Part shown: piece by piece, positions 33,953 through 44,918 of the stretch
Numbering within the stretch: position 1 is the stretch's first letter
Layout: each line of letters begins with the position of its first letter
DNA from: Nonomuraea gerenzanensis
GTDB taxonomy: Bacteria; Actinomycetota; Actinomycetes; Streptosporangiales; Streptosporangiaceae
Direction of reading: 5' to 3'
DNA: 64,000 nt
Assembly: GCF_020215645.1 (NCBI RefSeq)
Contig: NZ_CP084058.1
Coordinates: 11,586,501 to 11,650,500 of the forward strand
The notes under the pieces: generated by a model
Told to the model about the DNA's origin: nothing
The model's input: the letters and a program-made list of their open reading frames with translations, nothing else
The model's database searches: none
Translations under genes and position numbers: made by a program

Positions 33953-34531
33953 TCAGCCGAACTGCCGGCCCAGCTGGTCGAGCGTCTCGCTGATGACCTC
34001 GCGCAGCGTGCGCGCCTCCCGCTCCTCCGACCACAGGTGGGCGGCCAGCCGCAGCCCCACCAGGAAGGCCGCGGCCAGCACGCGGGGCGGCACCGTGGTG
34101 GACCGGTCGCCGACCGCCTCGGCGAGGTCGCGCTCCAGGGCCGCGTGGTTGGCGAGCTGACGGGCCAGCAGCGAGGGGTGACGCTTGGCCAGGCGGGTGC
34201 GCACGGCCCACTCGCGCTCTGGCTCCCGCATCTCCTGTTGCAGCTCGTCGATGGAGCGCCGCAGGGCCTGCCAGGCGGTCAGCTCCGCCGGCTGCGCGCG
34301 CACCCGCTCCACCAGGGCCCCGATGCGCTGCTCCTCCCCGTACAGGAGGGCGTCCTCCTTGCCGGAGAAGTAGTTGGAGAACGTGCGCCGCGAGATGTTG
34401 GCGGCGTCGGCGATGGCTTCGACGGTGACGTTGTCGAGACCGTGCTCGACGGTCAGCCGCAGGGCGGCCTCGTGCACGGCCTGACGGGTCTCGGCCTTCT
34501 TGCGTTCCCGCAGCCCCACCGTGGTGTCCAT
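33953..34531 (-). CDS. TetR-family transcriptional regulator
   Basis: 192 residues from the ATG at 34531 (an in-frame GTG at 34543 also possible). The HTH reads AVHEAALRLTVEHGLDNVTVEAIADAANISRRTFSNYFSGKEDAL. The C-terminal domain is generic. There is no obvious target gene: its neighbour upstream is another regulator and downstream is a convergent glycosidase. A perfect 14-bp palindrome lies 15 bp before the start, so it probably represses itself; a distant efflux or oxidase target is likely. Confidence 0.9.
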   Translation of the reverse strand: MDTTVGLRERKKAETRQAVHEAALRLTVEHGLDNVTVEAIADAANISRRTFSNYFSGKEDALLYGEEQRIGALVERVRAQPAELTAWQALRRSIDELQQEMREPEREWAVRTRLAKRHPSLLARQLANHAALERDLAEAVGDRSTTVPPRVLAAAFLVGLRLAAHLWSEEREARTLREVISETLDQLGRQFG

Positions 34532-34546
34532 GATGGCAGCCACCCT

Positions 34547-34560: not shown

Positions 34561-34645
34561 GTGCGAGCCCCGGCTGCGGTCAGGGCCCGCACAAGATCAT
34601 TATCGCGCATCAAGATCACTTATGGAGCACTTCCTGCATTGTGTA

Positions 34646-34665
34646 CACTCCTGTATACAGGAGTG
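34646..34665. promoter_or_regulatory. Perfect 20-bp palindrome, probable GntR operator A
   Basis: CACTCCTGTATACAGGAGTG is a perfect palindrome whose core CTGTATACAG (34651-34660) is found again at 41088-41097. It is 20 bp upstream of the GntR start codon. GTGTACAC just before it (34641-34648) is a second overlapping palindrome. Confidence 0.75.
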
Positions 34666-34685
34666 TGACCGCATCAAGGAGCACC

Positions 34686-35348
34686 ATGGCCGCAATGCCC
34701 GAGCGTAAGAGCCGCCGCACCGCGGAGTTCATGGCTGACGTCGTGCACGAGCGGCTGCGCGACGCCATCCTGGCCGCCGAGTTCCGGCCCAACCACCGGC
34801 TGGTGGAGGAGGAGCTCGCCGACTGGCTGCAGGTGAGCCGCACCCCGGTGCGCGAGGCGCTGCTGCGGCTGCGCCAGGAGGGGCTGGTCGACCAGCGCAA
34901 GGGCTGGTTCGTGCGCGACCACGCGCCGGAGGAGATCCTGGAGATCATCGAGGCGCGGGCCGGCATCGAGGCGCACGCCGCCTACCTCGCCGCCGAGCGG
35001 CTCGACGGGGAGCGGCTGGCGCGCCTGGAGCAGCTCATCGAGCAGATGGAGGCGCCGGGCATCTCGCGGCCCAAGCTCAACGAGCTGAACAACGAGTTCC
35101 ACGAGATCATCACCGAGGGGGCGGGCAACTCGCTGGTCGTCCAGTTCTACCGGCGCACGAAGGTCAACTACTGGAACTTCAACCAGCCCGTGGTCTTCAC
35201 CCCGGCCGACGACGAGGTGGTCAACACGCAGCACCGCGAGCTGGTCGCGGCCATCGCGGCCAAGGACGCCGAGACGGCGGCGCGGGTGGCGCGGGCGCAC
35301 GTCAACAACACCACCCGCATCATCGTGACCGCGCTCGGGCTCGGCTGA
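34686..35348 (+). CDS. GntR-family (FadR/FCD subgroup) regulator
   Basis: 220 residues, ATG at 34686 with AAGGAG seven bases upstream. The winged-helix domain reads VVHERLRDAILAAEFRPNHRLVEEELADWLQVSRTPVREALLRL, and the C-terminal FCD domain has the metal/ligand-binding His region NNEFHEIITEGAGN and AARVARAHVNNT. FCD regulators bind an organic acid or amino acid and usually repress nearby uptake/catabolic genes. Its 3' end overlaps the opposing EamA gene by 29 bp. The shared operator core at 34651 and 41088 makes it the likely controller of the 35320-41576 genes. Confidence 0.93.
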   Translation: MAAMPERKSRRTAEFMADVVHERLRDAILAAEFRPNHRLVEEELADWLQVSRTPVREALLRLRQEGLVDQRKGWFVRDHAPEEILEIIEARAGIEAHAAYLAAERLDGERLARLEQLIEQMEAPGISRPKLNELNNEFHEIITEGAGNSLVVQFYRRTKVNYWNFNQPVVFTPADDEVVNTQHRELVAAIAAKDAETAARVARAHVNNTTRIIVTALGLG

Positions 35349-36291
35349 CGAGCACCGGGCCGAAGCCGAAGGCCAGCAGGCCGAGCAGGATCACGGCCAG
35401 CGCGGCCCACTGCCGGGGGCTCATCGCCTCGTCCAGCACCAGCACGCTGAGCAGCAGCCCGACGAACGGCTGCAGGTAGGTGTTGACGGAGGCCGCGGTC
35501 GAGCCCCACCGCAGGATGAACCGGAAGTAGAGCAGATACCCGGCGGCCGAGGCGAGCAGGCCCAGCTCCACCACGGCCAGCACGGGCAGCAGCTCAGGCC
35601 GCCCCACCGAGAAGTGCCCCGTCAGGACGGTGGCCGGCACGAGGTAGAGGGTGGCGGCCGTGAGCTGGCCGCAGGCGATGACGGCCGGGTCCAGGTGCGG
35701 CAGGTGCGTGCGCGTGTAGACGTTGCCGGCCGCGAAGATCGCGGAGCTGGCGACCACCGCGAGGGGCCAGACCCCGCCGCCCACCGAGCCGGCCACCGAG
35801 CCGGCCACTGAGCCGATCGCCGAGCCGCCCGCTGAGCCGCCCGCTGAGCCGCCCGCTGAGCCGCCCGCCAGCGCCGCCATGCCGGCGAAGGCGATGACGA
35901 CCCCGGCCAGCCGGGGGAGGCTGAACCGCTCGGCCCGCGTCACCAGGCCGGCGATCAGGAACACGAACACCGGCGTGGTCGCCGACAGCACGACCGCCAT
36001 GGAGGAGGTGACGTGCTCCTGCGCCGCCGTCAGCAGGGTGAACGGCAGCGCGATGTTGAACGCGCCGAGCAGCGCCAGGTGCCCGAGCAGCCGCCGGTCC
36101 CGCGGCACGGCGAGCCCGCGCACCCGTACCGTGATCCCCAGCGCCACGGCGGCCAGCGCCATCCGGATGAGCACGATCATGTACGGGTTGAACGACCGCA
36201 GGGCGATCGCGGTGAAGAAGAAGCTGGCTCCCCAGATCGACGTCATCACCGCGTAGAGCCCGTAATCCCTGGCCGTGCCGCGGGTGGTCAT
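35320..36291 (-). CDS. EamA/DMT-family transporter with a Gly-Ser-Ala repeat insert
   Basis: 323 residues from the ATG at 36291, which overlaps the upstream ATPase stop (ATGA). About ten membrane spans in two EamA halves (WGASFFFTAIALRSFNPYMIVLIRM; NTYLQPFVGLLLSVLVLDE). Family members export amino acids, purines or other metabolites. The loop between the two halves is stretched by GGSAGGSAGGSAGGSA and a GSVA run, encoded by seven 12-bp repeats. It is the last gene of the operon with a polar-amino-acid importer, so import and export of related compounds may be coupled. Confidence 0.92.
   Translation of the reverse strand: MTTRGTARDYGLYAVMTSIWGASFFFTAIALRSFNPYMIVLIRMALAAVALGITVRVRGLAVPRDRRLLGHLALLGAFNIALPFTLLTAAQEHVTSSMAVVLSATTPVFVFLIAGLVTRAERFSLPRLAGVVIAFAGMAALAGGSAGGSAGGSAGGSAIGSVAGSVAGSVGGGVWPLAVVASSAIFAAGNVYTRTHLPHLDPAVIACGQLTAATLYLVPATVLTGHFSVGRPELLPVLAVVELGLLASAAGYLLYFRFILRWGSTAASVNTYLQPFVGLLLSVLVLDEAMSPRQWAALAVILLGLLAFGFGPVLVSRARARSR
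35781..35864. repeat. Seven 12-bp tandem repeats inside the EamA gene
   Basis: Units such as CCGCTGAGCCGC and CCACCGAGCCGG, seven copies, in frame; the last three are identical. They code a flexible Gly/Ser/Ala loop between the two halves of the transporter. Confidence 0.9.
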
Positions 36292-37079
36292 GCAGGGGCG
36301 TCGTTCCTGTCGGCCATCCTCGCCAGGAAGGCCCTGGTCCGCTCGTGCACGGGCGCGGTCAGCACCTGCGCGGCCGGCCCCTCCTCCACGATCGTGCCGT
36401 CCACCATGAAGATGATCCGGTCCGCGATGTCCTCGACGAGCGGGATGTCGTGGGTGGCCATCAGCATCGTGCACTCCTGCCTGGCCAGGTCCCTGATGAC
36501 GTTGGCCACCTCGACGCGCAGCTCGGGGTCGAGCGCGCTGGTCGGCTCGTCCAGCAGGATCATGCTCGGGTCCATGGCCAGCGCCCTGGCGATGGCGACC
36601 CGCTGCTGCTGGCCGCCGGAGAGCTGGCGCGGGTAGTGGTGCTCGCGCCCGGCCAGCCCCATCCGGCCGAGCAGCTCGACGGCCCGCCGCTCGGCCGTGG
36701 CCCTGTCCAGGCCCAGCACCTGGCGCGGGCCGTAGGCCACGTTCTGGGTGGCGGTCAGGTGCCGGAACAGGTTGAAGTGCTGGAAGACCATGCCGATGCG
36801 GGCCCGCTGCCTGCTCGCCTCGCGGTCGCCGAGCGGCTGCAGGTGGTCGCCCACCCTGCGGTAGCCGATCAGCTCGCCGTCCACCTCGACGCAGCCGGAG
36901 TCGATCAGCTCCAGGTTGTTCACGCAGCGCAGGAACGTGGACTTGCCCGCGCCGGAAGGCCCGATGAGCGCCACGATCTCACCGTCGTGGACCTGCACGG
37001 ACACGTCCCTGAGCACCGGGGTGGCGCCGAAGGACTTGAACACGTGCCGCGAGCGCATCTTGACCGGTGCCTGTGTCAT
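36288..37079 (-). CDS. Polar amino acid ABC transporter ATP-binding protein (GlnQ-like)
   Basis: 263 residues. Walker A GPSGAGKSTFLRCVNNLE, Q-loop VFQHFNLFRHLTATQNV, signature LSGGQQQRVAIARAL, Walker B MILLDEPTSALDPE, and the H-loop ATHD. The insert GYRRVGDHLQPLGDREASRQRARIG is typical of polar-amino-acid importers. Works with the permease and binding protein encoded just upstream (four-base gap to the permease). Confidence 0.95.
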   Translation of the reverse strand: MTQAPVKMRSRHVFKSFGATPVLRDVSVQVHDGEIVALIGPSGAGKSTFLRCVNNLELIDSGCVEVDGELIGYRRVGDHLQPLGDREASRQRARIGMVFQHFNLFRHLTATQNVAYGPRQVLGLDRATAERRAVELLGRMGLAGREHHYPRQLSGGQQQRVAIARALAMDPSMILLDEPTSALDPELRVEVANVIRDLARQECTMLMATHDIPLVEDIADRIIFMVDGTIVEEGPAAQVLTAPVHERTRAFLARMADRNDAPA

Positions 37080-37083
37080 GCCG

Positions 37084-37929
37084 TCACCTCGCTGGGAACT
37101 TGCGCTCGAGGACGTGCTGCAGCACCGTGATCAGCGCGGTCAGCAGCAGGTACCAGAAGGCCGCGACGAGCAGCAGTTCGAGATACTTGAAGTTGGTGTA
37201 GTAGACGCGGCTGACCGCGAGCAGGATCTCCGAGTACCCGATCGCGTACGCCAGCGACGTGTTCTTGATCATCAGGATGTACTGGTTGCCCACGGCCGGC
37301 ATCACGATCCGGAACGCCTGCGCCAGCACGATCTGCCGGGTGATCTTCCCGCTGGGCACCCCGAGCGCCCGGGCCGCGTCACGCTGCCCCTGGTCCACCC
37401 CCTGGATGCCGCTGCGGATGACCTCCGCCATGTACGCGCTCTCGGCCAGCGTCAGCGCGAACAGCCCGGCCACGAACGGCGTGAAGAACACGCTGGCCGC
37501 CTGCTCCTCGATCAGCACCACGTCCGTGAACGGGATCGACAGGCTCACCCGCCCGATCACCCGCGGCACCGCGTAGAACCAGATCAGCAGTTGCACCAGC
37601 ATCGGCGTGCCGCGGAAGACGAACACGAACCCGGCCGCCGCGGCCCGCAGCACCGCGTTGCCGCTGATGCGCAGCAGCGCCACGCCCGTGCCGAGCACGA
37701 TGGCCAGCGCCGTGCTGAGCGTGGCCAGGGAGAGCGTGCCCCAGACCGCCTCCAGGATCGTGGGGCCGAACAGGTAGCGCCCGACCGTGCCCAGGTCGAA
37801 CACGCCGGAGCGGAGGAACGGCAGCGCGATCAGGGGGACGGCGGCGACGACGGCGCAGGCCTGGAGGATCTGCCCCCAGGGCCTGGGCCGGCGGACGGGG
37901 AGGAAGACCTGCTGGTCAGGGCCTGGCAT
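37084..37929 (-). CDS. Polar amino acid ABC transporter permease
   Basis: 281 residues. Spans include AVVAAVPLIALPFL and LSLATLSTALAIVLGTGVALL. The HisMQ-type motif FVFVFRGTPMLVQLLIWFY and the coupling loop DQGQRDAARALGVPSGKITRQIVLAQAFR are present. Only one permease gene exists, so the channel is probably a homodimer. It overlaps the binding-protein gene by 14 bp. Confidence 0.95.
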   Translation of the reverse strand: MPGPDQQVFLPVRRPRPWGQILQACAVVAAVPLIALPFLRSGVFDLGTVGRYLFGPTILEAVWGTLSLATLSTALAIVLGTGVALLRISGNAVLRAAAAGFVFVFRGTPMLVQLLIWFYAVPRVIGRVSLSIPFTDVVLIEEQAASVFFTPFVAGLFALTLAESAYMAEVIRSGIQGVDQGQRDAARALGVPSGKITRQIVLAQAFRIVMPAVGNQYILMIKNTSLAYAIGYSEILLAVSRVYYTNFKYLELLLVAAFWYLLLTALITVLQHVLERKFPAR

Positions 37930-38773
37930 CGAGCTGCCCGTTGTACGCGGGCTGCTTCAGCCCGCCGACCGTCAGGCTCCACTTGCCGAGGATCTTGTCG
38001 TACGTGCCGTCTTTGATCATCGCGTCGAGCGTGGTGTAGACGGCGTCGCGCAGCTCCGGGTTCTTCCCCTTCATGAAGGTGAAGTTGATCAGGTAGTCGA
38101 CCAGGTGGTAGTCGGTGGTGGCGAACTGGTCGGGGTTCTCCTTGACGATGTACTGCGCCTGGGCCAGGTCCGGCGCGTACGCCGAGATCCGCTCCGACAG
38201 CAGGCCCTGGAGGCCGAGCGGCGTCGAGGTGTAGTGCTCGACCTCGATCTTCCCTGCCGGGCAGGAGGCGTTCTCCTTCTCCACGGCCTTCTCCAGCGTC
38301 GTCGAGCCCTCCAGCATGCCGAGCTTCTGACCGCACATGGCCTGGCCGGTGGCGTACTTGCCCGCGTCCGCCTTGCGGACCAGGAACGTGGCGCCGGACT
38401 GGTAGTAGCCGATCATGTCGACCTGCTGGAGCCGCTCCGGGTTCGGGCTCATGCCGCCCGAGCCCATGTCGAACTGGCCCGCCTGCAGGCCGGTGATGAT
38501 CGCCGAGTAGTCGACCTGCACCCACTGAGTGGTCAGGCCGAGCCGCCTGGCGATCTCGTCCACGATCTCCACGCCGAAGCCCCGCAGGTCCTGCGAGCCT
38601 TCCGCGCGGAACTCCCCTGGGATGTACGACTGCTGCGAGCCGATCATGAGGACGCCCTGCTGCACGGTGGGCACCTTGGCGCCCTGACCGCTCGCCTGCT
38701 GCTGGGCGCCGCCGTTGGAGCAGGCGGCCAGCACCAGGACGGCGGCGGCTGCCACGGCCGGGAAGAACCTCAT
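37916..38773 (-). CDS. Polar amino acid-type substrate-binding lipoprotein (family 3)
   Basis: 285 residues, ATG at 38773 with GGGAG six bases upstream. Lipobox VLAACS near residue 18. Family-3 binding fold: GFGVEIVDEIARRLGLTTQWVQVDYSAIITGLQAGQFDMGSGGMSPNPERLQQVDM. The usual arginine that grips the amino acid alpha-carboxylate is not obvious, and the core has Met/Ser-rich GSGGMSPNPE, so the ligand may differ from a plain amino acid. It was originally second in the operon, directly behind the cyclotransferase-like gene, until the IS element inserted 41 bp upstream. Confidence 0.92.
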   Translation of the reverse strand: MRFFPAVAAAAVLVLAACSNGGAQQQASGQGAKVPTVQQGVLMIGSQQSYIPGEFRAEGSQDLRGFGVEIVDEIARRLGLTTQWVQVDYSAIITGLQAGQFDMGSGGMSPNPERLQQVDMIGYYQSGATFLVRKADAGKYATGQAMCGQKLGMLEGSTTLEKAVEKENASCPAGKIEVEHYTSTPLGLQGLLSERISAYAPDLAQAQYIVKENPDQFATTDYHLVDYLINFTFMKGKNPELRDAVYTTLDAMIKDGTYDKILGKWSLTVGGLKQPAYNGQLDARP

Positions 38774-38814
38774 CGTTGTCTCCCTGCGTGTGAGGTGGTC
38801 GGGGGGTCGGGAGC

Positions 38815-38820
38815 GCTAGC
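38815..38820. repeat. Target-site duplication of the IS element (left copy)
   Basis: GCTAGC, identical to 40542-40547 at the other end. Because the sequence is palindromic and flanked by C or G, a 4-bp CTAG duplication with one extra terminal base in each inverted repeat is equally possible. Confidence 0.8.
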
Positions 38821-40541
38821 CCCGTTTTCCGCACGTGGAGGTATGTGAAGATCGCCGGGTTGCTGTGGTGATCGTTGTCGCGGTATGACCTGGCTGGTGA
38901 GACAGCGTGCGCAGTGGGGCCAGGCCAGTGTCGAGAAGATGCTCGGGGCATTACCGGTGGTGGCCGGTTTCTGCTCGCGGTTGCGGGTCCGGGAGCTGGT
39001 GGATGCGGCCTGCCCGGTGCGCGATATCGCGGAGCTGACTCACGGGCAGGTGATCGAGGTGCTGGTGGCCAACCGGCTGACCTCGCCCGCCCCGCTGGTG
39101 CACGTGCAGGACTGGGCGCGCGCCTGGGCGGTGGGTGAGACGTTCGGGACCGATCCCGAACTGCTCAACGATGACCGGATCGGCCGCGCGCTGGATGCCA
39201 TCGCCCCGCATCTGGACCAGCTGACCGGGTCGGTCGGGCTGGCCGCGATCGAGGCGTTCGGCCTGGACGTGGCCCGCCTGCACTGGGACATGACCTCGAT
39301 CTCGCTGCACGGCGACTACGAGCAGGCCGAGCCCGGCTTCGCGACACCGCGTTTTGGTCACCCCAAGGACCGGCGGCCGGACCTGAAGCAGATCCAGGCC
39401 GGGATCGCGGTCAGCGCCGATGGCGCGATCCCGGTCTTGCACCGCGCCTACGACGGCGCGGCCGGTGAGGTGGGGCAGGTCATCGGCGCCATGCAGGGCC
39501 TGCAGAAGCTGGCCGGCCCGCAACGCATGCTCATGATCGGCGATTCCAAGCTGATCTCGTATGCCAATCTGGCGGCGATGACCGCCGCTGGGGTCGCCTT
39601 CATCGCGCCGGCCTCCAAGCAGTACGTCGGCGTCGCGGCCCTGGCCGGTCAGAAGATCGACGACGCGGCCCGGGTGGACTACGTCGCCGCCCGGGACGAG
39701 CACAAGAGCGCCGACCGGCGCGGCCTCTGGCACGTGCGCGAGGACGACACCATGACACTGGCCGGGCCGCGCAAGAAGGACCCGATCCTGACCCTGCGGC
39801 GCATCTTCGTGCACTCCTCCGCCCGCGCCCAGGCCGCCGCCACCGCCCGGGCCAAGAAACTCGAGCGGGCCCGCGACGATCTGGCCCGGCTGGAACGCGG
39901 CCTGGGCAGCCGCCACTACCCCACCGAGCAGGCCGTCGCCGACCGCCTCGCCGCGATCGGCCGCGACCGCCGGGTCAGCACCTACCTGACCGCGCGGACC
40001 GGCACCGATCCCACCACCGGCAAACCCACCCTGGCCTGGCACTTCGACCAGAACGCGATCGACGCCGAAGCCGCCACCGACGGCTGGTACGCCCTGCTCA
40101 CCAACCTGCCCGCCGAGGCCGCCGACGCCGGACAGGTGCTACGCCATTACAAAGGCCAGGAAGCCGTCGAACGCCGCTACCAGGCCTTCAAGGGGCCGCT
40201 GGCCGTCACCAGCCTGTATTTGAAGAACAACCGCCGCATCCACGCCCTGATCACCGTCATCTGCCTGGCCCTGCTCATCTTCTGCCTGATCGAGCGCCAG
40301 GCCCGCCAAGCCCTCGCCGACCGCGGCGAAACCAAGGTCAACGGCCTGTACGCCGGACGGCCCGCCGTCCCCACCGGCAAGCTCATCCTCGACGCCCTGG
40401 CCGGCATCCGGCTCATCCCGGGCACCGGCCAGTCACCCCCGACCATCCCGCAACCCACCACCCTCCAACTCGATCTCCTGGACCTTCTCGACATCGATCC
40501 ACGAGACCTCCGCTGAAGATCACTCACCTGCGGAAAACGGG
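38821..40541 (+). mobile_element. IS1634-family-like insertion sequence, complete
   Basis: 1,721 bp. Terminal inverted repeats: left CCCGTTTTCCGCACGTG, right (reverse complement) CCCGTTTTCCGCAGGTG, one mismatch in 17. Six-base target duplication GCTAGC on both sides. A single full-length transposase. All ends and the gene look intact, so the insertion is recent and probably still functional. Confidence 0.9.
38885..40516 (+). CDS. IS1634-like (IS4-clade) DDE transposase
   Basis: 543 residues. Catalytic acidic residues are likely Asp in LHWDMTSISLHGDY, Asp in MLMIGDSKLIS and Glu in YKGQEAVERRYQAFKG; the last matches the Y-2-E-6-K style signature of this clade. The C-terminal hydrophobic segment IHALITVICLALLIFC is normal for the family. 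It is transcribed opposite to the host operon. ATG at 38885; the inverted repeats end 64 bp before and 25 bp after the gene. Confidence 0.93.
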   Translation: MTWLVRQRAQWGQASVEKMLGALPVVAGFCSRLRVRELVDAACPVRDIAELTHGQVIEVLVANRLTSPAPLVHVQDWARAWAVGETFGTDPELLNDDRIGRALDAIAPHLDQLTGSVGLAAIEAFGLDVARLHWDMTSISLHGDYEQAEPGFATPRFGHPKDRRPDLKQIQAGIAVSADGAIPVLHRAYDGAAGEVGQVIGAMQGLQKLAGPQRMLMIGDSKLISYANLAAMTAAGVAFIAPASKQYVGVAALAGQKIDDAARVDYVAARDEHKSADRRGLWHVREDDTMTLAGPRKKDPILTLRRIFVHSSARAQAAATARAKKLERARDDLARLERGLGSRHYPTEQAVADRLAAIGRDRRVSTYLTARTGTDPTTGKPTLAWHFDQNAIDAEAATDGWYALLTNLPAEAADAGQVLRHYKGQEAVERRYQAFKGPLAVTSLYLKNNRRIHALITVICLALLIFCLIERQARQALADRGETKVNGLYAGRPAVPTGKLILDALAGIRLIPGTGQSPPTIPQPTTLQLDLLDLLDIDPRDLR

Positions 40542-40547
40542 GCTAGC
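40542..40547. repeat. Target-site duplication of the IS element (right copy), containing the stop codon of the next gene
   Basis: GCTAGC. Read on the minus strand it contains TAG (40545-40543), the natural stop codon of the cyclotransferase-like gene, so duplication kept that gene intact. Confidence 0.8.
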
Positions 40548-41040
40548 GGGAGTCGGCGGAGCGCCCTGGCTTGCCGGCCGGCGCGGGGCGGTCGAAGTCG
40601 GGGCACTCGGCCGCGTCGTCGAAGATCTGCCGCACCTCGGCCTGGTAGTCGGCGGGGAACCGCTGCTCCGCCAGCCCCTGGGGCACCCGCTCCCAGTAGA
40701 AGCGCGGCGGCCGCATCCGGATGCCCGGCCGGCTCAGCACGTAGGTGAAGCAGTCGTAGTACCGCCCGTCGTCGCCCCGCACGGTCAGGAACACGATGTC
40801 GAAGTCGTCGAACTCGTCCTTCAGGTGCGCGTCGTCGACCTCGAACACGATGCCCTGCGCGACCTTGCCGTACGTCCCGGTGCCGGCCAGGTGGCACCAG
40901 CCCCGGTCGGTGCGCTCGCCCGCCGCCCTGAACTGGATCTGCCGGTTGACGGCCTTGGCCTTGGTCACTGCGACGGCCTCAGGAAGGTATTTCCGCAGCT
41001 CGGACTCCAGCAGGTAGGTGCAGTAGCCGAAGTAGTACAT
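40543..41040 (-). CDS. Gamma-glutamylcyclotransferase-like (GGCT/AIG2 fold) protein
   Basis: 165 residues from the ATG at 41040 (GGAGAG upstream). The N-terminus MYYFGYCTYL matches the YFaYGsnl loop of the fold that binds the gamma-glutamyl group. Later strands (GIVFEVDDAHLKDEFDDFDIVFLTV) align with the family core, but the catalytic Glu normally in a LDxxEG segment is not clear (here FDDFDIV), so activity may be altered. Promoter-proximal gene of the minus-strand operon, 92 bp from the divergent VOC gene with a GntR-type operator between. An IS element sits directly after its stop codon. Confidence 0.75.
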   Translation of the reverse strand: MYYFGYCTYLLESELRKYLPEAVAVTKAKAVNRQIQFRAAGERTDRGWCHLAGTGTYGKVAQGIVFEVDDAHLKDEFDDFDIVFLTVRGDDGRYYDCFTYVLSRPGIRMRPPRFYWERVPQGLAEQRFPADYQAEVRQIFDDAAECPDFDRPAPAGKPGRSADSR

Positions 41041-41087
41041 GGCTCTCTCCAGGGGAAACGAGATTGTATGTGTTACCGTACGCCAAT

Positions 41088-41097
41088 CTGTATACAG
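41088..41097. promoter_or_regulatory. Palindrome CTGTATACAG, probable GntR operator B
   Basis: A perfect 10-bp palindrome identical to the core of the 34646-34665 site. It lies in the 92-bp gap between the divergent cyclotransferase-like (start 41040) and VOC (start 41133) genes, so one bound dimer could control both. Confidence 0.7.
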
Positions 41098-41132
41098 CCA
41101 TTCCGGGCATTCCGTCCAGATAGGGAGAACGC

Positions 41133-41576
41133 GTGATTCCGCTCTTCAGGCAGCTGCACCACGTGTGCGTCGTCGTCGCGGACCTGGACCGGGCCGTGGC
41201 CTACTACGAGAGCGTGGGCATCGGACCGTGGTTCGACTACCCGAAGGGCGGGCCGTACGTGGAGTACGACGTCCCCAACGCCGAGGCCTCGGCCTCGATG
41301 CGCTACAAGTGCGCCGACCTGGACAACGTCCAGCTCCAGCTCTGCCAGCCGTCCGAGCTGGACTCGCCGCAGCGGCGCTTCCTGGACGAGTTCGGCGAGG
41401 GCGTCTACCACCTGGGCTTCGAGACCCCCGACCTGGCGCGGGCCGAGGAGCAGGGCCGCGGGGCGGGCTTGGCGATCATGGCGCGGGGGCGCAGGGAGGA
41501 CGGGTCCGGGTTCTGCTACTTCGACACCCGGCCCGGCGCCGGGGTGACGCTGGAGGTGCGTAAGACCCAGCTCTGA
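41133..41576 (+). CDS. VOC-family protein (methylmalonyl-CoA epimerase-like fold)
   Basis: 147 residues from the GTG at 41133 (GGGAG six bases upstream). Two beta-alpha-beta-beta-beta units: QLHHVCVVVADLDRAVAYYESVGIGPWF at the N-terminus and GEGVYHLGFETPDLARAEE in the middle. Possible metal ligands are His in LHHVCVV, Gln/Glu in VQLQL, His in YHLGFE and Glu in VTLEV, matching the epimerase/glyoxalase layout. It could epimerise or isomerise an intermediate of the GntR-controlled pathway. Substrate unknown. Confidence 0.8.
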   Translation: MIPLFRQLHHVCVVVADLDRAVAYYESVGIGPWFDYPKGGPYVEYDVPNAEASASMRYKCADLDNVQLQLCQPSELDSPQRRFLDEFGEGVYHLGFETPDLARAEEQGRGAGLAIMARGRREDGSGFCYFDTRPGAGVTLEVRKTQL

Positions 41577-41669: not shown

Positions 41670-44600
41670 ATGGCAAGTCTGGCTTCTCCTGCGCTGGTCG
41701 GGCGGGACGCCCCGCTGCGATTACTCATCGGCGCCGTCACCTGCCCGCCCGCCGTCATCCAGGTGCAGGGCGAGGCGGGGATCGGCAAGACCAGCCTCGT
41801 CCGTGCCGCGATCGAGCCGCTCACCCCGCCCGCCTGGACGGTGCTGATCGGCCACTGTCACCAGATCCGCGAGCCGTTCCCGTACGGGCCGGTGTTCGAC
41901 GCGCTGCGGCACGTCGCGTCGGCCCTGCCCGGCCACGACCGGCTCAGCCCGGTCACCGGGGCGCTGCGCGGCTACCTGCCCGAGCTGGCGGGGCACCTGC
42001 CGCCCGCGCCGTCCCCGCCGCCCATGGACGATCCCCGGGCCGAGCGGCACCATCTGTTCCGTGCCGTGCACGCGCTGCTGGGCGCGGCCGGGCCGGTGGT
42101 GCTGGTGGTCGAGGACCTGCACTGGGCCGACGACGGCACCCGGGACCTGCTGCGCTTCCTCACCGACCAGCCGCCCGAGGGGCTGGCGCTGGTGGTGACG
42201 TTCCGGCGGGAGGAGCTGCCGGTGCCTGGGCTGCCGTTCGGGCACGCGTACCGGCGGGCGCCCGGGGTGCGCAGCGAGGTGATCTCGCTGACGCCGCTCG
42301 ATGTGGAAGGGGTGCGCAGGCTGGCCGGGGCGCTGCTCCGCTCGGCCACCGTCGCGTCCGGCGCGGCTTACGGGGTGGGGACGCCCGCCGCGTCTGACGG
42401 GGTGGGCGGGCCCACCGCGTCGGACGGAGTGGGCGGGCCCGCCGCGTCGGACGGAGTGGGCGGGCCCGCCGCGCTCACCACCGCCTTCGCCGCGAAGCTG
42501 CACGATCGCACGGCCGGGGTGCCGTTCGTGATCGAGGAGGTGGTGCGGTCGCTGCTCGACGACGAGGGCCGCCTGCCCGAGCCAGAGGCGCTCGACCGGA
42601 TGGGCGTGCCGGTGCTGCTGCGCGAGGCCATGGCCGAACGGCTCACCGGCCTGTCGCCCGCCGCGCTGCGCGTCGTGCACGCCGCCGCCGTCATGGGCCT
42701 GCCCGCCGAGGAGCCGCTCATCAACGCGGTCGCGGGCACACCGGCACCGCAGCCCGGCCTGAGCCAGGCGCCGCACGCGCCCGGCGAGCCGGGGGCGCAC
42801 GAGGCACCGCACGGTGGTCCGGAGGCGCACGAGGCACCGCACGGCGGGCCGGGGTTGAGCGAGGCGTTGCAGGCGGGGGTGCTGCGGGAGCATCCCGACG
42901 GCCTGTACGGCTTCCGGCACGCCCTCGCCCAACAGGCCGTCTACGACGCCATCCCCGGCCCCGACCGCCGGCTCACGCACCGCCGCGCCATGGCCGCGCT
43001 GGCGGCGCTCGACCCGCCGCCCCTCGTCCAGCTCGCCCACCACGCCCGCCGCGCCGGGGACTTCGCCGCGTGGCAGCGGCACGGCAGCGCCGCCGCCGAC
43101 CACGCCGCCGCCATCGGCGACATCCCGCTGGCCGTGGAGCTGCTGGAGGGGCTGCTCGCCGACCCGAAGCTGCCCAGGCAGGCCCGCGGGCCGCTGGCGC
43201 TGCGGCTCAGCCGCGTCGCCGCGATCGGCCTGTCGCACCGCCGCGTCGTCCGCATCCTGCGCCACCTGCTGTCCGACGACTTCCTGTCCTCGCAGGTACG
43301 CGGCGAGGCCCGGCTGAACCTGGGCGTGCTGCTGTCCAACCAGGCGGGCGCCATCACGGCGGGCCGCCAGGAGATCCTCGCCGCGCTGCCCGACCTGGCC
43401 GACAGCCCCTCCCTGGCCGCCCGCGGCCTGGCGTTGCTGGCCATGCCCGTGTGGGGCGGCGAGCCGCTGGCCATGCACGAGGAGTGGATGGCGCAGGCGG
43501 AGAAGCTGCTCGTGGAGGACCAGGACCCGGAGCTGACCGCCGCCGTCCAGGCCAACAAGGTGAGCCTGGCCATGCTCGTCGGCTCCCCCGACGCGTTCGA
43601 GCTGGCGGGCACGCTGCCGGCCAACGACCCGTCCACCGCCGTACGCCGCCAGGTGGCGCGCGGCTACTCCAACCTCTACGACGCCGCGCTCGCCCTCGGC
43701 CACTACGCCGCGGCGGCGCGGTTCGCGGAGCGGAGCAGGCGCGTCGCCGAGGAGACCGGCGCGTTGTACCCGGCGTTCCTGGTCGAGATGTCGTCGATCC
43801 GGCTCGACCTGCTGACCGGCCGCTGGGAGGGCCTGCGCGAGCGGGCGCTGGCCGCCGTCGAGATGACGTACGAGGCGCCGCTGCTCGCCGTCGAGGCCCG
43901 GCTCGCGCTCGGCGTGCTCGGCCTGGCCAGGGGCGAGTGGGACGAGGCCGGCGAGCACCTGGAGGCGGCCGGCGTGCGGGACCTGGACTCGGGGTTCCTG
44001 CCGGTCGCCGTGGCGGGGTCGAGCGGGCTGGTCGAGCTGCACCTCACCAGGGGCGCGCTGGAGCCCGCCCTCGCGGCGGCCGACCTGGCGGTGACGCGGC
44101 TGCGGCGCAAGGGCGTGTGGGTGTGGGGCGATCAGCTCGTCCCGGCGGCCGTCCACGCGCTGCTGCGGGCGGGGCGGTCGCAGGCGGCGGCGGGGCTGGT
44201 GGCCGAGTTCGCGGCGGGCATCTCGGGCAGGAACGCGCCGTCCGCGCACGCGGGGCTCTGCCTGGCCGAGGGGTCGCTGGCCGGTGACGCGGGGGGCTTC
44301 GAGGAGGCTGCCCGGTGTTACGGGCGGGCGCGGGCGGCGTACCTCGCGATGCCACGTCCGTACGCGGCGGCGCGCGCTGCCGAGCTGGAGGCGGGCGCCT
44401 GGCTCGCCGCGGCCGGCCACGAGGAGCGCGCCACGCACGAGCAGCGCACCACGCGCGAGAGGAGCGGCGCTGGCGAGCCGGGCGGCGCTGGCGAGCAGCG
44501 CGCTGCTGAGCGAGAGCGGGCCTCGCACCCGGAGCTGGCCATCGACCGGGGGCGGGCCTCGCCTCGGGGGCGGGCCGCCGGCCTGATCGCGGACGCCGCC

Positions 44601-44918
44601 GAGCGGTACGCCGCGCTGGGCGCCACGCACGACGCCGCCCGCTGCCGCCGCCTCCTGCGCGAGCTGGGCCCCGACCGCCCGCCGGCCCGCCGCAGCAGGA
44701 AGGCCGGCGGGGTGTTGTCGCCGCGCGAGAGCGAGGTGGCCAGGCTGGTGGCGCTGGGCCGGACGAACAGGGAGATCGCCGAGGTGCTGTTCCTGTCCCA
44801 GCGCACGGTGGACACGCACGTCGCCCGCGTGCTGCAGAAGCTCGGCGTGCGCACGCGGGCGGAGGTGAGAGAGCCCCGGCCGGAGGACCGGCCGGGGCCC
44901 GTCACCCCCGAGTCGTGA
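41670..44918 (+). CDS. LuxR-type LAL ATPase transcriptional regulator
   Basis: 1,082 residues, ATG at 41670 after GGAG. Walker A is GEAGIGKTSL near residue 34, and Walker B is VLVVEDLHWAD near residue 150. A long TPR-like region follows, then the C-terminal LuxR HTH SPRESEVARLVALGRTNREIAEVLFLSQRTVDTHVARVLQKLGV near residue 1018. Three low-complexity inserts interrupt it: ASDGVGGPA repeats (about residue 240-270), AHEAPHGGPE repeats (about 375-395) and an Arg/Glu/Gly-rich stretch (about 915-965). The target genes are not evident; the neighbours are the VOC gene and a convergent protease gene. Confidence 0.92.
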   Translation: MASLASPALVGRDAPLRLLIGAVTCPPAVIQVQGEAGIGKTSLVRAAIEPLTPPAWTVLIGHCHQIREPFPYGPVFDALRHVASALPGHDRLSPVTGALRGYLPELAGHLPPAPSPPPMDDPRAERHHLFRAVHALLGAAGPVVLVVEDLHWADDGTRDLLRFLTDQPPEGLALVVTFRREELPVPGLPFGHAYRRAPGVRSEVISLTPLDVEGVRRLAGALLRSATVASGAAYGVGTPAASDGVGGPTASDGVGGPAASDGVGGPAALTTAFAAKLHDRTAGVPFVIEEVVRSLLDDEGRLPEPEALDRMGVPVLLREAMAERLTGLSPAALRVVHAAAVMGLPAEEPLINAVAGTPAPQPGLSQAPHAPGEPGAHEAPHGGPEAHEAPHGGPGLSEALQAGVLREHPDGLYGFRHALAQQAVYDAIPGPDRRLTHRRAMAALAALDPPPLVQLAHHARRAGDFAAWQRHGSAAADHAAAIGDIPLAVELLEGLLADPKLPRQARGPLALRLSRVAAIGLSHRRVVRILRHLLSDDFLSSQVRGEARLNLGVLLSNQAGAITAGRQEILAALPDLADSPSLAARGLALLAMPVWGGEPLAMHEEWMAQAEKLLVEDQDPELTAAVQANKVSLAMLVGSPDAFELAGTLPANDPSTAVRRQVARGYSNLYDAALALGHYAAAARFAERSRRVAEETGALYPAFLVEMSSIRLDLLTGRWEGLRERALAAVEMTYEAPLLAVEARLALGVLGLARGEWDEAGEHLEAAGVRDLDSGFLPVAVAGSSGLVELHLTRGALEPALAAADLAVTRLRRKGVWVWGDQLVPAAVHALLRAGRSQAAAGLVAEFAAGISGRNAPSAHAGLCLAEGSLAGDAGGFEEAARCYGRARAAYLAMPRPYAAARAAELEAGAWLAAAGHEERATHEQRTTRERSGAGEPGGAGEQRAAERERASHPELAIDRGRASPRGRAAGLIADAAERYAALGATHDAARCRRLLRELGPDRPPARRSRKAGGVLSPRESEVARLVALGRTNREIAEVLFLSQRTVDTHVARVLQKLGVRTRAEVREPRPEDRPGPVTPES
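42390..42470 (+). repeat. Three 27-bp in-frame repeats in the LAL gene
   Basis: Each unit codes ASDGVGGPA (or ..PT); the last two are almost identical at DNA level. A further 30-bp unit coding AHEAPHGGPE is duplicated near 42795-42854. Confidence 0.85.
44873..44898. terminator. Strong hairpin at the end of the LAL coding region
   Basis: Perfect 11-bp stem GCCCCGGCCGG / CCGGCCGGGGC with the tetraloop AGGA, inside the last codons of the LAL gene (stop 44918) and 27 bp before the convergent protease gene stop (44925). It could end transcription from both sides. Confidence 0.65.

Follow-up and report, generated by a model that had tools for sequence, protein, structure and literature searches.

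Which amino compound, if any, brings together a GntR-type regulator, a polar amino-acid importer and two enzyme genes in the actinomycete Nonomuraea gerenzanensis? The question is raised by a 64,000-nucleotide stretch of its 12.07-Mb genome (G000:C1:11586501-11650500; hereafter the window, with positions counted from its first letter), part of which a sequence-only reading had described as a GntR regulon pairing a γ-glutamylcyclotransferase (GGCT)-like protein, a VOC protein, a polar amino-acid importer and an EamA transporter. We propose that these genes form a mobile, self-regulated module for the uptake and conversion of one amino compound, repressed by its own GntR protein, a reading to which we give an even chance. 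Read directly from the sequences were the genes of the set and how widely they are conserved, the operator core, the homologies and those residues that are candidate ligands of metal or substrate. If the proposal is correct, it adds a previously unassigned pathway for an amino compound, equipped with a regulator and an importer of its own, and two enzymes that differ from characterised relatives in active site or family score; binding protein, operator and enzymes would then provide three independent and simple handles on the substrate. The main protein families are known; neither the gene set nor the way its operator is built, nor the altered active site of the GGCT-like protein, is described in the open-access literature searched. 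In agreement with the sequence-only reading, no described pathway with this gene set was found there, subscription journals lying mostly outside the coverage.

Gene set and conservation

The module begins with gntR (34686..35348, plus strand; PF00392, 58 bits; PF07729, 95.8 bits), encoding the proposed repressor, whose 3' end is overlapped by 29 bp by the gene for an EamA (DMT) transporter (35320..36291, minus strand; PF00892), a proposed exporter of product or intermediate. The polar amino-acid ABC importer is encoded next on the minus strand, with its ATPase (36288..37079; PF00005; best NCBIfam match GlnQ at 277 bits, below the cut-off of 379), permease (37084..37929; PF00528; TIGR01726 above cut-off) and family-3 solute-binding lipoprotein (37916..38773; PF00497). 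Beyond an IS1634-family insertion sequence (IS) lie the genes for the GGCT-fold (AIG2_2-like) protein, the proposed first enzyme (40543..41040, minus strand), and the VOC protein (Glyoxalase_4), the proposed second enzyme (41133..41576, plus strand; PF13669). Apart from the insertion sequence and the GGCT-like protein, both treated below, all of these identities had been named beforehand and were borne out by Pfam and NCBIfam. The EamA protein of this strain carries an in-frame GSAGGSAGGS-type repeat (35790-35870).

Gene-set counts refer to 29 loci other than the window, including that of a second N. gerenzanensis record (L047; LT559118), whose module proteins are 99-100% like those of the window and which holds the same insertion. 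One scan of 84,980 species genomes, restricted by exact peptide patterns, gave 20 loci with the GGCT-like gene. Some of the 29 loci are not independent of each other, namely five of Nonomuraea, three of Herbaspirillum, four of Azospirillum and two of Micropruina. Overall, the GGCT-like gene, the VOC gene, the polar amino-acid importer and gntR occurred together in Actinomycetota and in Alpha- and Betaproteobacteria, and partly in Chloroflexota. The VOC gene was present in 26 of the 29 loci, being absent from L011 and L012, and L018 stops at a contig edge (its genome has a VOC gene near another contig end). The gntR gene was present in 27 loci, the exceptions (L016 and L018) both stopping at contig edges, the binding protein was recognised by similarity in 27, with a diverged one found by Pfam in L025, and the EamA gene was present in 20. 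Among plasmids, the GGCT-like gene occurred in 9 of 72,556 records, and all 9 were among the 14 records with the VOC gene. Strains with the module were recorded from agricultural soil, paddy soil, legume root and Melilotus, among others.

A family of proteins of about 90 residues (SHxYPG...FSDG...AKxW), searched with a profile built from 11 of its loci, accompanies the module in 23 of the 29 loci (e.g. L050:4361-4624, L048:7694-7990 and L009:13077-13379) and is absent from the window and from the four loci with distant VOC genes described below. It matched no Pfam model (six members searched) and no NCBIfam model (13 members searched). Relatives were found in 21 of 59 genomes searched, all of them among the 36 Nonomuraea genomes and including that of N. 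gerenzanensis; together with the absence from the window, this weakens the case for a module-specific family. The N. gerenzanensis relative (L080:9493-9768) lies 7 Mb from the module and is divergent from a gene for an AXE1-type acetyl xylan esterase, an arrangement seen in four of five such loci (L080, L081, L083 and L084), L082 having other neighbours.

Palindromic operator sites

We confirmed that the palindrome CTGTATACAG lies before gntR (34651-34660) and again between the divergent GGCT-like and VOC genes (41088-41097), where each copy is a proposed GntR operator, the first serving autoregulation. The first copy is embedded in a longer perfect palindrome, as had been noted, but this spans 22 bp (34645..34666) and not the 20 bp from 34646 to 34665 given before. 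No further match was found in the window at one mismatch; by chance a mean of 0.17 copies is expected there, and at least two copies arose in 2 of 100 shuffles. In the whole genome CTGTATACAG occurs exactly twice, both times inside the module. Its reversed letters likewise occur twice genome-wide, so the count itself is ordinary for an AT-rich 10-mer in this genome, and the informative point is that both copies sit within one module. A scan of 38700-41200 for sigma-70-type promoters gave no matches, a result that is uninformative for an actinomycete.

Conservation of the site was assessed over the 300 bp upstream of the GGCT-like or VOC operon, counted from its first gene, in 29 loci (here with the window included and L047 left out), and compared to 2000 random placements in the same loci, which fall mostly in coding DNA, and to 500 dinucleotide-keeping shuffles of the upstream DNA. 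RTATAY was present upstream in 27 of 29 loci (random placements: mean 1.66, maximum 7; shuffles: mean 3.03, maximum 9) and GTATAC in 16 (random placements: mean 0.77, maximum 5; shuffles: mean 1.02, maximum 6), while a tandem RTATAY pair was found in 17 (random placements: mean 0.58, maximum 4; shuffles: mean 0.00, maximum 0). With one locus per genus or metagenome-assembled-genome group, the counts were 17, 9 and 12 of 19, respectively, above every shuffle. Spacings of 4-8 bp were allowed for the tandem, and all 19 matches had exactly 6 (RTATAY-N6-RTATAY, i.e. 12-bp steps). All 17 tandem loci are proteobacterial, and of the 18 loci in that group only L016 lacks the pair.

The exact 10-mer proved much less widespread than the core. 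Among the 29 loci other than the window, CTGTATACAG was found in six, five from Nonomuraea (L006, L007, L008, L028 and L047; one of the five carries a single copy) and one from Nocardia (L025). The result that would have refuted the sequence-only reading, homologous loci in which these genes never adjoin and CTGTATACAG is missing, was not obtained, since the genes lie together in related loci. The remaining loci have GTATAC or RTATAY variants, apart from two Chloroflexota loci with none upstream. The position between the GGCT-like and VOC genes is occupied by CTGTATACAG in the window, L006, L007, L008, L028 and L025. Separately transcribed parts of the module also carry the core: a GTATAC-type site precedes gntR in eight of nine actinobacterial loci with a separate gntR unit (with a GTATAC core in the window, L006, L007, L008, L028, L025, L009 and L010); the gene for the binding protein has one in Nocardia L025 and, in the form of a 12-bp tandem, in Microbacterium L013, as has the VOC gene of Herbaspirillum L023, which is transcribed separately. 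No such site was found before gntR in L011 and L012. In L025 (Nocardia sp. alder85J), the usual importer is replaced by a diverged one, also of family 3 and transcribed on its own, which still has CTGTATACAG before it. Azospirillum loci L019, L020, L048 and L058 carry another GntR gene, which adjoins the VOC end of the module and runs on the opposite strand; RTATAY was missing from the 300 bp upstream of all four, and the gene was rejected as a further target.

Gene set and operator core are both conserved across phyla, which strengthens the earlier claim of a GntR regulon pairing these genes, GntR binding at the RTATAY core being a prediction from the sequences; GGCT-like and GntR distances also correlate closely (Pearson 0.90). 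The same results bear on a loose grouping of generic amino-acid genes without a common pathway, in which the palindromes would be generic FCD-GntR sites. In favour of such a grouping, every family apart from that of the small protein is known and has a wide distribution, and the GGCT-like gene itself is rare, with a match in only 5 of the 98 genomes searched around the window, its own included. However, the same gene set recurs in two phyla and partly in a third, and the operator core accompanies most separately transcribed parts; we consider such a grouping very improbable.

Ligand sites, enzymes and the proposed reactions

The importer resembles polar amino-acid ABC importers of the GlnHPQ type, with adjacent genes for binding protein, permease and ATPase (SBP_bac_3, BPD_transp_1 and ABC_tran), and its binding-protein profile matched AncQR (4zv1) with an E value of 2.2e-42. 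Arg114 and Asp202, presumably the contacts to the α-carboxylate and α-amino groups in binders of α-amino acids, are kept in all 20 aligned sequences. It differs from these importers in that its scores do not reach the cut-off of any NCBIfam equivalog named for a substrate among the matches listed (for the ATPase, the best 25 of 201). The earlier suggestion that a γ-glutamyl or similar compound is taken up is partly supported by the two conserved contacts. The regulator has the winged helix, the FCD domain and the short palindromic operator of FCD-type GntR proteins; in Proteobacteria its operator differs in being a tandem with 12-bp spacing. Positions 135, 139, 183 and 205, which we take to be the FCD ligand set (N135, H139, H183 and H205) and thus candidate metal ligands, are kept in 23 of 23 sequences, position 135 being Asn in 20 and Asp in 3. 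A literature search joining GntR, FCD and TGTATACA found nothing.

The GGCT-like protein of the window matched no Pfam or NCBIfam model at E values up to 0.1. Its family comprises 79 clustered proteins, of which 57 were aligned, and the family profile matched human GGCT over profile residues 2-140 (E 1.7e-8), showing that the cyclotransferase-like label was right at the level of the fold. Of the 57 members, 22 matched PF13772 and 2 matched PF06094 (E up to 0.01), and the structure model had a mean pLDDT of 94.7. Identity to the window protein is 49-87% outside Nonomuraea. Position 78, which aligns with Glu98 of human GGCT, presumably its catalytic residue, is Asp in 47 members (including Asp78 of the window), Glu in 7, Pro in 2 and a gap in 1, in a loop whose alignment is ambiguous, shifting for 2rbh, and at a residue where two human entries differ. 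Taken literally, the earlier remark that no obvious catalytic Glu is present holds, although this alignment, ambiguous as it is, places an acid here in 54 of 57 members. Other features set the family apart from the GGCT (AIG2_2/GGACT) proteins to which it is homologous: the Glu98 loop is shortened, the substrate loop YGSN (human residues 22-25) is replaced by YCT[YWF] (YCTY in the window; Y-C-T in 55 of 57, with one row having Gly and one incomplete), four cysteines are conserved (Cys7, Cys49, Cys97 and Cys146 in 55, 56, 54 and 56 of 57, respectively), and there is a conserved tail ending in Arg. D45, R46, G47 and H50 are invariant. Gly7 occurs in one row only, P0067, where position 49 is Ser; this lone case hints that Cys7 and Cys49 may act together. 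A second, distant GGCT-like protein with a YCEW motif and 24-26% identity is encoded in both L011 (4927-5406) and L012 (8515-8997).

The VOC protein is the best conserved over long distances, with 63-72% identity to the window protein outside Nonomuraea. Among 16 aligned sequences, H10, Q69 and E141 are invariant and H93 is kept in 15 (Gln in L021). This His/Gln/His/Glu set, which we take to be the metal ligands of the methylmalonyl-CoA epimerase family, stands at the expected places, and profile matches to 3gm5 (E 8.6e-16), to the methylmalonyl-CoA epimerase 6wf6 (E 6.9e-10) and to 1jc4 (E 0.0081) likewise place the protein with the epimerase/Glyoxalase_4 VOC proteins. The protein departs from methylmalonyl-CoA epimerase in that it scored 38.3 bits against the epimerase model TIGR03081, far below the cut-off of 114.95, and no CoA genes are among the shared genes. 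More distant VOC proteins (about 50% identity) are encoded in plasmid clusters (L053, L054, L055 and L057) with genes for PxpA-type 5-oxoprolinase, FAD oxidoreductase, SDR, TPP-enzyme and aldehyde dehydrogenase, which are perhaps another undescribed pathway. They have Leu at the Glu141 position (4/4 aligned) and their loci lack RTATAY at all six starts, which weakens any transfer of their chemistry to the module.

The genes beside the module and beside these distant VOC genes bear on a route through a five-membered-ring amino acid (a relative of pyrroline, 5-oxoproline or hydroxyproline), with ProC-type reduction where present, in which the GGCT-like enzyme would make or open the ring without releasing an amine. 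A proC gene adjoins the module in L049, L050 and L052 (above the TIGR00112 cut-off) and, more weakly, in L013 and partially in L015, one of these five genes being the query itself; the PxpA-type genes stand beside the distant VOC in all four plasmid loci read, out of five such records, together with FAD oxidoreductase genes and, in one, a proline racemase-type gene. Both clues point to five-membered ring chemistry as a lead only, the second because the distant VOCs are without Glu141. However, 24 of 29 loci, including every Nonomuraea locus, gave no proC match, and the missing Glu141 again counts against this route, which we regard as unlikely.

From these data we infer the mobility, repression, inducer, substrate, reaction order and EamA direction of the preferred module as follows. 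The FCD-type GntR would bind the GTATAC-centred palindromes, one ahead of its own gene and one in the gap separating the GGCT-like from the VOC gene, and repress both units until the compound or its product binds the FCD domain. The family-3 importer would take in an α-amino acid, most likely with a γ-acyl (γ-glutamyl-type) side chain, as suggested by the GGCT homology and by the apparent need of the binding protein for free α-amino and α-carboxyl groups. The GGCT-like enzyme would then form or handle a five-membered lactam from the imported amino acid, the metal-dependent VOC enzyme may isomerise or epimerise an intermediate, and EamA could export product or overflow. One PxpA homologue elsewhere in the N. 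gerenzanensis genome could open 5-oxoproline.

Several results weigh against this module. The Glu98 loop is about 7 residues shorter than in human GGCT and Gly23 of YGSN is Cys, so that ordinary γ-glutamyl cyclotransfer is not assured, and proC at five loci is ill-suited to simple γ-glutamyl release. Since the distant VOCs lack Glu141, the PxpA-linked pathway cannot simply be transferred. VOC distances track those of the partners only moderately (Pearson 0.63 with the GGCT-like protein and 0.65 with GntR, compared to 0.90 between GGCT-like protein and GntR in 23 loci), shared host ancestry contributing to all three correlations. The Chloroflexota loci L011 and L012 lack VOC and RTATAY site, and L011 also such an importer, while L013 has no RTATAY before gntR.

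An alternative explanation is detoxification, in which the importer would be a bystander or scavenger, the GGCT-like and VOC proteins would disarm a toxic amino-acid analogue and EamA would export it. In its favour, EamA is present in 20 of 29 loci, the description of PF13669 counts resistance proteins among the VOC proteins, and the neighbours that were scanned or annotated showed no further enzyme common to all loci. An importer dedicated to the compound and encoded in the same operon would, however, bring the toxin in, and in Proteobacteria importer and GGCT-like gene lie mostly behind one operator; detoxification is therefore, in our estimate, improbable. Returning to the uptake and conversion module, we suggest tentatively, and with less than even confidence, a pathway not yet described: a GGCT-fold enzyme that contains Cys (YCT loop) and has Asp for Glu98 would act with a metal-dependent VOC enzyme and, in most hosts, the partner of about 90 residues to perform new reactions on a γ-acyl or pyrrolidine-type amino acid. 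They would be controlled by one GntR lineage and a GTATAC-type operator in Actinomycetota, Alpha- and Betaproteobacteria, with the 12-bp tandem in Proteobacteria.

Insertion sequence and flanking genes

The genes between the two palindromes had been read as one minus-strand operon, which is ruled out for this strain by a complete IS1634-family element that had been missed, situated between the binding-protein gene and the GGCT-like gene, at the stop codon of the latter (38815..40547, plus strand). Its transposase (38885-40516, plus strand) scored 274 bits against NF033559 (cut-off 100), and its inverted ends of 24 nt (38814-38837 and 40525-40548) are 96% complementary; it has no part in module function. 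The genome holds three more full-length copies with 97-100% identity (G000:C1:680386, 4593094 and 8534392), one partial copy at 84% and one 29-base fragment. All four full copies carry GCTAGC at both ends, which suggests a preferred GCTAGC/CTAG target or a duplicated one. Relatives L006, L007 and L008 have an unbroken CGCTAGCG at the end of the GGCT-like gene; together with the GCTAGC ends, this indicates that the TAG stop survives the insertion and that neither gene is damaged.

The gene order is uninterrupted in the Nonomuraea loci L006, L007, L008 and L028 (the junction was read in the first three), with a gap of about 40 bp between GGCT-like and binding-protein genes in L006. The insertion is recent and splits the ancestral operon in two, pushing the importer genes 1.7 kb from the operator and cutting off importer and EamA genes, so that regulated expression of the importer may be lost in N. 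gerenzanensis, which may be the wrong strain for testing the module.

Among flanking genes, neighbours found at a single locus (dehydrogenases, a kinase, an acetyltransferase and others) were not seen as shared between loci and were rejected as members. The TetR gene (33953-34543) was set aside as it has no TetR match outside Nonomuraea, and the LuxR gene (41670-44918) as it has only short LuxR matches there (L012 and L019). This large LuxR-type regulator, which adjoins the VOC gene, contains an in-frame repeat, ASDGVGGPA (42370-42480).

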